Source: an uncultured Deferribacteres bacterium
Lineage (GTDB): Bacteria > Zhuqueibacterota > JdFR-76 > DREG01
Reading direction: 5' to 3'
Assembly (NCBI GenBank): GCA_913009825.1
Contig: CAJVYQ010000006.1
Span: 1 to 64,000, forward strand
Length of the DNA stretch: 64,000 nucleotides
The notes beneath the pieces are model-generated. The model was not told the origin of the DNA. It was given only the letters and a program-made list of their open reading frames with translations, and did not search any database. The position numbers were made by a program, and so were the translations under genes. Below, piece by piece: positions 1 to 48,304 of the stretch (position 1 is its first letter; every line of letters begins with the position of its first letter).

Positions 1-64
1 TCTCTGCGTCTCTGCGTTTTAAAGCGCCTGTTTTTTTAACGCAGAGACGCGGAGGGCGCAGAGA
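1..64. repeat. Palindromic repeat P, copy 1 (cut by window edge)
   Basis: Imperfect palindrome whose left arm reads tctgcgtctctgcgtttt and whose right arm reads aacgcagagacgcgg followed by a gcgcagaga tail. It belongs to the family seen intact at 7895-7974 and 8401-8480, with further copies at 17951-18027 and 48219-48304. The left part is probably missing because the window begins inside it. It could form a long hairpin in DNA or RNA. No coding content is seen. Confidence 0.8.
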
Positions 65-252
65 AATTGAAAAAATCGTCTGCCTGTTCAGCCCGCGAAT
101 TACACGAAATCATACGAATAGGACAAAGTAGTTAACGATTCTCGTTTTTTAGCGATATTAGCGGGCAACCTGAATAGTTACATAAAATGTTACAATTAAT
201 TGAAATACATTTTATTATTTTACAACAGACGGGAATAAATTGAAATGTTTTT

Positions 253-7884: not shown

Positions 7885-7894
7885 TTTAAATAAA

Positions 7895-7974
7895 CTCTGC
7901 GAACCTCTGCGTTCTCCGCGTCTCTGCGTTTTAGAGGAGCTTTTTTTAACGCGGAGACGCAGAGGCCGCAGAGA
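7895..7974. repeat. Palindromic repeat P, copy 2
   Basis: 80-bp imperfect palindrome: left arm ends ctccgcgtctctgcgtt, right arm begins aacgcggagacgcagag. It is identical over all 80 bases to the copy at 8401-8480; together they bracket the GxxExxY gene. It starts about 10 bases after the M16 stop codon and could also act as an mRNA 3'-end hairpin. Confidence 0.9.
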
Positions 7975-7995
7975 TGCGCAGAAGGAGATTGGAAA

Positions 7996-8388
7996 ATGCA
8001 CGAAAATGAGATTTCGGAGAAAATAATCGGAGCTGCCATTGAAGTGCATCGGATATTAGGTCCGGGACTCCTGGAATCTGTTTATGAGGAAGCTCTTTGC
8101 CATGAATTGCATTTGAGAGGATTGGCATTTGGAAGGCAGAAAAGTGTACCGATTCCATATAAAGGGATTAAACTGGGAACAGATTTCCGTCTTGATTTGA
8201 TAGTGGAAGACAAAGTGATTGTGGATTTGAAAGCCAAAGAGAAGCTTTCCGAAATAGAGAAGCCGCAATTATTAACCTATTTACGGCTTACCCAAAAACA
8301 TTTAGGCTTAATCATAAATTTTCATGTTAAAATATTGCGTGATGGTATCTTCCGTGTCGTCAACAAGTTAAGGGAACCTGCAGAATAA
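7996..8388 (+). CDS. GxxExxY family protein (PD-(D/E)XK-like)
   Basis: 130 residues; AGGAG lies about 12 bases before the ATG. The family signature G-x-x-E-x-x-Y is exact at residues 24-30 (GLLESVY). Downstream, a conserved DFRLDLIVEDKVIVDLKA segment has the D...(D/E)xK spacing of restriction-endonuclease-like folds. The molecular function of this family is not established; it is small, scattered across unrelated bacteria and often multicopy. Here it is a lone gene between two identical 80-bp palindromes (7895-7974 and 8401-8480), only 21 and 12 bases away, so gene plus repeats look like one inserted unit. It is not operonic with the flanking peptidase genes. Family call is firm; nuclease activity is inference. 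Confidence 0.88.
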   Translation: MHENEISEKIIGAAIEVHRILGPGLLESVYEEALCHELHLRGLAFGRQKSVPIPYKGIKLGTDFRLDLIVEDKVIVDLKAKEKLSEIEKPQLLTYLRLTQKHLGLIINFHVKILRDGIFRVVNKLREPAE

Positions 8389-8400
8389 ATTTTATAAAAA

Positions 8401-8480
8401 CTCTGCGAACCTCTGCGTTCTCCGCGTCTCTGCGTTTTAGAGGAGCTTTTTTTAACGCGGAGACGCAGAGGCCGCAGAGA
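8401..8480. repeat. Palindromic repeat P, copy 3
   Basis: Identical to 7895-7974 over 80 bases and in the same orientation, immediately 3' of the GxxExxY gene. Since other copies in the window (1-64, 17951-18027, 48219-48304) are clearly diverged, the identity of this pair points to recent joint duplication or mobilisation, or to gene conversion. Confidence 0.9.
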
Positions 8481-8593
8481 TATGGATAAGCATTTACTTT
8501 GTCCTCAAATGTTGAATAATTGAATAACAACACATAACTACTAATGACGGCGAAACCAAATAACTTTTTTTCTGAAAAACGAAGGAGAAAAAT

Positions 8594-15390: not shown

Positions 15391-16017
15391 ACTCTAGTTT
15401 CGCATTTATAATTGTAACTTGTCGGGAGCCGAAAAATACAGTTGTCCGGAATATCTTTTGTTCCATTCTTCGATGTTAATCATCCTGTGCATAAAACAAG
15501 TATCCGTATTTTTCCGGGACAATCCCTGTTCATTGATTCATATACTGCGAGCCCTGAAAGGGCGGAATATACCAGCCCGGGGCAACGTCCCCGGGGGAAG
15601 AAAACAACGGAGTCAAGCCCTGAAGGGGCGAAATACAAAATTCAAATGAACAGACCGTACCGGCACAGGCAAATATCCCGCCCTTTCAGGGCTTGTTATT
15701 CTTTTTCCTCTTTCCCCCCCGGGGCGTTGCCCCGGGCTATTGTATTTCACCCCGTTGGGGCGGCTGAAAATGTATTTTAAATGCTATGAATGTCTCACTG
15801 CTGATATCTAAAAGAGTATCACCGGCTTTTTCAGGTTGGGTAAAAAATCCTTTCAATTTGTACAATTTTGTAATACCTTCAATATACAGCATATAACCTC
15901 TGTTTTGGAATTATGTATTAACATATTATAATTTATTAAGTTGTGAGTTTGTATGCTGCTTTTTTTATGCTGGTTTACCTTATTTTTATACCGGTTAACT
16001 AACTGCGAAACTTGAGT
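15391..16017. mobile_element. MITE-like element A, copy 3 (627 bp, complete)
   Basis: Terminal repeats actctagtttcgca (one mismatch to the family) at 15391-15404 and tgcgaaacttgagt at 16004-16017. Exact 6-bp target duplication aattta at 15385-15390 and 16018-16023. The interior matches copy 1 closely, including GC-rich inverted segments and the AT-rich right third. It abuts element B copy 2, whose target duplication it overlaps by two bases. It encodes no protein I can support. Confidence 0.85.
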
Positions 16018-17950: not shown

Positions 17951-18027
17951 TCTGCGTCCTCTTCTCCTCTGCATCTCTGCTTTTTTGCGCGCTCGTTTTT
18001 AACGCAGAGGCGCAGAGGACGCAGAGA
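17951..18027. repeat. Palindromic repeat P, copy 4
   Basis: Left arm tctgcgtcctc...gcatctctgc and right arm aacgcagaggcgcagaggac form a diverged palindrome of the family flanking the GxxExxY gene. It lies mid-gap between the AIR-synthase-like gene and recD2, followed at 18060 by a partial family C end (gtgtctgaccgaaaac). Confidence 0.8.
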
Positions 18028-48218: not shown

Positions 48219-48304
48219 CTCCGCGTTCTTTGCGTCCTCTGCGCCTCTGCGTGAAAAAATGTCTGAACAACGCAGAGACGCAGAGAGCGCAGAGATTCGC
48301 AGAG
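48219..48304. repeat. Palindromic repeat P, copy 5
   Basis: ctccgcgttctttgcgtcct with cctctgcgt, loop, then acgcagagacgcagagagcg. A diverged copy of the palindrome that flanks the GxxExxY gene. Lies 70 bases after the valS stop. Confidence 0.8.

Follow-up and report, generated by a model that had tools for sequence, protein, structure and literature searches.

A GxxExxY gene between two identical palindromes

Does a small gene that lies between two copies of the same palindrome form one unit with these repeats, and if so, to what kind of unit does it belong? The question arises from a stretch of 64,000 nucleotides (hereafter the window) in the genome of an uncultured Deferribacteres bacterium, whose assembly comprises 5.1 Mb in 123 contigs. 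The gene encodes a protein of the GxxExxY family, which is common and without an assigned function. The initial annotation described the locus as a candidate REP/RAYT-like unit whose protein may recognise or spread the palindrome, here called P.

The two flanking copies of P, P1 and P2, were confirmed (Table 1). Their identity extends to 84 nt, and the gaps of 21 nt from P1 to the ATG and of 12 nt from the stop codon to P2 are as described. The three further copies that had been reported in the window are all present. Each of P1 and P2 is predicted to fold as a DNA hairpin (-28.8 kcal/mol, z -7.0), and none of 200 shuffles folded as well. The gene lies between genes for an M16 and an M1/M28 peptidase, and no rRNA match was found in the window. 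An Acido-Lenti-1 RNA match above the gathering score was observed at 15550-15595 on the minus strand.

Table 1 Features of the window related to the GxxExxY gene and palindrome P.
Feature	Position	Strand	Description
P copy within truncated high-copy MITE	1..181	.	P copy at 1-64; MITE ends with CTGAATAGTTAC at 181
Palindrome P1	7895..7974	+	Identical block 7892-7975; outer half 7895-7928, loop 7929-7947, inner half 7948-7973
Left arm adjoining the gene	7948..7973	+	AACGCGGAGACGCAGAGGCCGCAGAG; heptads CGCGGAG, CGCAGAG, CGCAGAG
GxxExxY gene, 130 aa	7996..8388	+	PD-(D/E)XK nuclease fold; conserved E27, D67, D77-x-K79, Q91, Y95
Palindrome P2	8401..8480	+	Identical block 8398-8481; direct repeat of P1
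Right arm adjoining the gene	8401..8434	-	Inverted array, same heptads: CTCTGCG AACCTCTGCG TTCTCCGCG TCTCTGCG
Loop and outer half of P2	8435..8479	.	Further left-type array
Diverged P-type palindrome	17951..18027	.	Adjoins GTAAC-type repeat sequence
Solitary P-type palindrome	48219..48304	.	Without gene

The gene-side halves of P1 and P2 constitute a pair of arrays that point toward the gene on both sides. The polarity of the left arm and its AACGC start match the arms of the closest named relative of the window protein, L126, which is 80% identical and is found in a metagenome-assembled genome of candidate division KSB1. The loop and outer half of P2 are as expected if units were joined head to tail, as in the tandem units around other copies in this genome, and the outer halves of both palindromes may be the remains of such neighbouring tandem units.

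The protein is a predicted PD-(D/E)XK nuclease under purifying selection

The window protein belongs to the GxxExxY/PDDEXK_3 family, with matches to TIGR04256 (E 8e-43, 145.6 bits versus a cut-off of 35) and PF13366 (E 3e-40, 137.9 bits versus a cut-off of 22). Its AF2 model is confident (pLDDT 92.9, pTM 0.85) and PD-(D/E)XK-like. The best PDB matches found by Foldseek were Cas4 SSO0001 and lambda-type exonucleases, at weak significance (E about 1e-2 to 1e-3, prob 0.92-1.0), and tRNA splicing endonucleases ranked lower than these DNA exonucleases and Cas4. A sequence search of the PDB returned no relative. D67 and K79 are nearly invariant, and a dN/dS of 0.07-0.12 shows that the ORF is under purifying selection. 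Judged by its model, the protein has the core fold of the PD-(D/E)XK superfamily and is a predicted nuclease. The PD-(D/E)XK-like region noted in the initial annotation is supported by the model and by the conserved D67 and D77-x-K79, but membership in REP/RAYT is not, since no Y1/HUH protein is present.

Most copies of palindrome P lie in a separate MITE

A search of the source genome for P gave about 40 scored P-like places (130 candidates), which were mostly located within a separate MITE. This element has the terminal inverted repeats GTAACTATTCAG..CTGAATAGTTAC, with 8-9 bp direct repeats at the ends of several copies (read by eye), and P occupies its centre. The MITE also forms the end of several contigs. 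Every MITE copy with both flanks resolved has P-sized DNA between them, and no copy without P was found among the genome copies. P itself can therefore be carried by another mover, with its own terminal inverted repeats and direct repeats. Because most P copies sit in the MITE, the abundance of P in this genome is no measure of GxxExxY activity, and the copy number of P, whose relation to the presence of the gene had been proposed as a check, was discarded as evidence of spread by the gene.

The other GxxExxY places of the source genome also adjoin palindromic repeats, but these differ in sequence; three of the places lie within or next to tandem repeat units, and one consists of a truncated fragment. 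P specifically is therefore not the partner of the gene family, contrary to what had been proposed.

Inverted heptad arrays flank GxxExxY genes in many phyla

GxxExxY loci were compared across genomes. Among 32 loci of the source genome, its relatives and a few outgroups, 26 had inverted arms better than those of all 60 shuffles. Such arms were also present at 55 of 77 loci in a broad set that spans many phyla and takes in methanogenic archaea as well as cyanobacteria. When pooled with a wider flank over KSB1-type genomes and many phyla, significant inverted arms flanked 106 of 133 single-domain loci, compared with 0/29 for SmpB and 4/70 for random ORFs of the same loci. The expectation that GxxExxY genes are flanked by palindromes far more often than control genes was thus borne out. 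Arm-bearing genomes were also enriched among GxxExxY carriers (41/75 versus 2/24, Fisher 4e-5), including inside the phylum alone (39/73 versus 1/9, p 0.03). GxxExxY nuclease genes between inverted heptad arrays occur in many bacterial and some archaeal phyla. In many loci, 0-30 nt separate the arms from the ORF, and the loci that were inspected lie between protein genes, often directly after a stop codon.

The arms are arrays of heptads, and 247 of 313 adjacent word pairs are spaced by 8-9 nt (137 and 110, respectively). In 60 of 133 loci, the closest array on either side is directed toward the gene, and both flanks lack a word array in 18 of 133; the gene-pointing orientation holds in most loci that have arrays. 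The two arms of one element, although about 400 nt apart, share heptad letters at position 2 (92.5% versus 50% between elements) and at position 5 (86.6% versus 50%). Position 2 changes 22 times on the protein tree versus 29.6 times after shuffling, which indicates that it tracks the protein weakly.

Two further groups of genes were found in comparable arms. Two-domain GxxExxY loci had inverted arms in 9 of 11 cases, with a period of about 14-18 nt (nine loci only). Genes for four-helix-bundle proteins (TIGR02436) had inverted arms at 20 of 28 loci, with a period of exactly 7 (lag-7 identity 0.71 versus 0.31 shuffled). The two-domain proteins (L271-L283, about 270-300 aa) were observed with arms of longer words, such as CCAACGGATAGATTAAG and GGCAAAACCATT.

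The heptad word follows the nuclease clade

The words in the arms differ between two protein clades. Clade I, with the tail LKDGIKR, has the word CRCNRAG, and clade II, with the tail NFG..KR without DG, has CRCNRAT, ACAGGAT or CACRAAA. For the set in which this rule was first tested, the protein tree requires a single change of the G/T label, versus 19.9 in shuffles. The combined tree comprises 156 labelled elements; on it, the four-state word undergoes 7 changes, compared with a shuffled mean of 46.3 and a minimum of 42; within the non-RAG set (clade II), there are 6 changes versus 15.0 in shuffles (minimum 12). The clade test rests on the protein tree; assignment by regular expression misplaces a few truncated tails.

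When the rule was applied to nine loci of another small phylum, the one clear clade II locus was T-type, and the clade I loci were G-type or undecided. A second set of 30 loci was then considered, which was fetched with a clade II profile from 50 named genomes with a G-type clade I copy and which includes two clade I loci already in the earlier set, as well as L362, a clade II locus with a read-through tail that the regular expression labelled I. Among the loci scored as clade II, 24 were T-type, 3 were undecided by pattern and none was G-type. A T-type clade II copy was paired with a G-type clade I copy in 23 genomes and the opposite pairing was seen in none, every readable clade I copy being G-type. 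The feature common to these loci is the architecture, namely iterated heptads in inverted arms with a word that follows the nuclease clade. Linkage alone could explain part of the agreement between word and clade.

Gene and arms are inherited and transferred together

Comparisons between related loci showed that the unit has been transferred between phyla and between gene contexts. Among 88 pairs of loci at least 70% identical, 69 share no flanking gene and 19 share one (5 of 12 pairs and 14 of 76). Amino acid identity between phyla reaches 76%, versus a cross-phylum maximum of 68% for SmpB. When L031 is aligned with L158, homology sets in with the outermost base of the left arm; for L143/L166 and L167/L174, the right arm is where it ends. 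Other aligned pairs lose homology within the arms or before they are reached. The change of context and the edges of homology at the arms show that the unit is transferred as a whole. Some pairs, namely L031/L037 and L032/L042, are in conserved places, and vertical inheritance therefore also occurs.

Orthologous sites yielded no clean empty site, and no target-site duplication was derived; other palindromes, remnants or a relBE-like module were found there instead. The site of L234 has a 55-nt arm-like remnant in genome G024, and the dnaE site of genome G056 has the relBE-like module. Loci L288-L293 represent a single intergenic site ahead of an RND pump gene: two genomes have a GxxExxY unit there, and three relatives have other palindromes or remnants, which would fit a reuse of such sites. 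In two betaproteobacterial genomes (L141 and L149), the unit was seen by eye just after a trpE-like gene, and in L149 the next gene resembles the partner trpG. Other carriers were also considered. When 2.9 million viral contigs were scanned for the pattern, no relative was confirmed, and a viral origin was dismissed; for plasmids, there were only 8 records.

Comparison with known repeat-associated elements

In REP/RAYT systems (REPtrons, BIMEs), the RAYTs are Y1/HUH transposases and the REPs carry a conserved tetranucleotide. The GxxExxY units are similar in that a nuclease gene is flanked by inverted copies of genome-dispersed palindromic repeats, which also occur alone, and in that the type of repeat pairs with the type of nuclease. 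In contrast to REP/RAYT, the protein here is of the PD-(D/E)XK type and the repeats are iterated heptads; a genome has several copies that differ from one another, and homologous units occur in different contexts. Instead of short palindromes tagged by GTAG/CGTC, the arms consist of CRCNRAG/CRCNRAT words spaced by 8-9 nt. A RAYT relationship was ruled out, as the window gene matches only PF13366/TIGR04256, with a PD-(D/E)XK fold, and a Y1/HUH protein is absent.

MITEs and DDE insertion sequences share the terminal inverted repeats and the short gene-less relatives, but GxxExxY units lack a DDE transposase; no transposase of a known class was found inside the unit, whose sole recognised ORF is the GxxExxY gene. 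The predicted model shares its fold and presumed active site with Cas4 and lambda exonuclease, whereas the GxxExxY protein is a small stand-alone protein inside its own repeats, and the PDB contains nothing closely related to it in structure or sequence. Cyanobacterial STRR repeats consist of tandem 7-nt words and resemble the arms of the four-helix-bundle genes, but the GxxExxY words are spaced by 8-9 nt; STRR repeats are not known to be coupled to a gene family.

In the intervening sequences of 23S rRNA, terminal inverted repeats that form a 28-bp stem enclose an S23 four-helix-bundle ORF (PMC4990558). These sequences are likewise a suspected mobile element with a small ORF and a sporadic distribution, and the four-helix-bundle family studied here has analogous heptamer arms. 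Unlike the GxxExxY units, they lie in 23S rRNA, from which RNase III excises them; the window unit is between peptidase genes and the other loci are between protein genes.

No description of a GxxExxY gene-repeat unit or of the arm strings was found in the open-access literature searched. The unit belongs to none of the known kinds considered. Of the mobile, previously undescribed system suggested by the initial annotation, the repeat-flanked gene unit stands, but P itself as the partner does not.

Possible mechanism and alternative explanations

The window probably holds one copy of a widespread mobile or homing-like unit, composed of a left arm, a GxxExxY gene and a right arm, in which a clade-matched nuclease reads its own arms. 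We infer DNA binding, DNA cutting and a role of the nuclease as the mover of the unit. The PD-(D/E)XK protein would most likely bind the heptad array of its own clade, probably in an extruded hairpin or cruciform, and would then cut the DNA there; repair or copying of the break may spread the unit and leave short gene-less palindromes. If so, the working principle would resemble that of REP/RAYT or of an autonomous/non-autonomous pair, with a different enzyme and repeat grammar.

Alternatively, the arms could be moved by another enzyme with the GxxExxY gene as linked cargo, and word and clade would agree through joint descent. P does ride in a MITE with the repeat GTAACTATTCAG and 8-9 bp direct repeats, and the four-helix-bundle genes appear as cargo of similar, heptamer-based arms. 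However, words remain distinct between the nuclease clades and the two-domain form over many phyla, an unrelated mover is not expected to follow the clade of its cargo, and the active site is conserved with a dN/dS near 0.1, which together make such a passenger role rather unlikely. It is less probable still that the arrays are operators or marks read by the nuclease for autoregulation or as a chromosome guard, with movement not being the function. The short distance between arm and ORF and the existence of solitary copies fit this explanation, but the arms are symmetrical and also lie downstream, related genes mostly change place, and the homology ends at the arms in the best cases.

The layout shared by the TIGR02436 family and the intervening sequences of 23S rRNA, with its ORF inside a long stem (PMC4990558), would suit an RNA-level element in which the arms form the stem of a transcript stem-loop and the protein acts on RNA. 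We consider this improbable to a high degree, given the position of the inspected loci between protein genes, often immediately behind a stop codon, and the better fold matches to DNA exonucleases and Cas4 than to tRNA splicing endonucleases. An artefact of composition in these palindrome-rich genomes is scarcely credible: controls with SmpB, random ORFs and shuffles, taken from these very genomes and loci, were negative, which refutes a chance origin of the arms, and the word-clade code held in the second genome set.

For the mobile unit read by its own nuclease, a wider generalisation can be framed, which is about as likely as not: in a cross-domain class of mobile elements, a single PD-(D/E)XK nuclease would be the driving enzyme and would read heptad arrays via clade-specific words (RAG, RAT, AGGAT and RAA, with a longer period for the two-domain form), with a parallel four-helix-bundle class that uses exact 7-nt words. 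The readable word code turns a family without an assigned function into the subject of a direct binding and cutting experiment. The unit also offers an origin for many anonymous palindromes of the CACAGAG, CGCAAAG and ACGGAT types in bacterial and archaeal genomes.

The elements with four-helix-bundle genes, relatives of the 23S rRNA intervening sequences, are suggested to follow the same plan with 7-nt words. At loci L096-L125, the TIGR02436 genes are framed by inverted arms whose words measure exactly 7 nt; the proteins of this analogous system are related to those of the intervening sequences.
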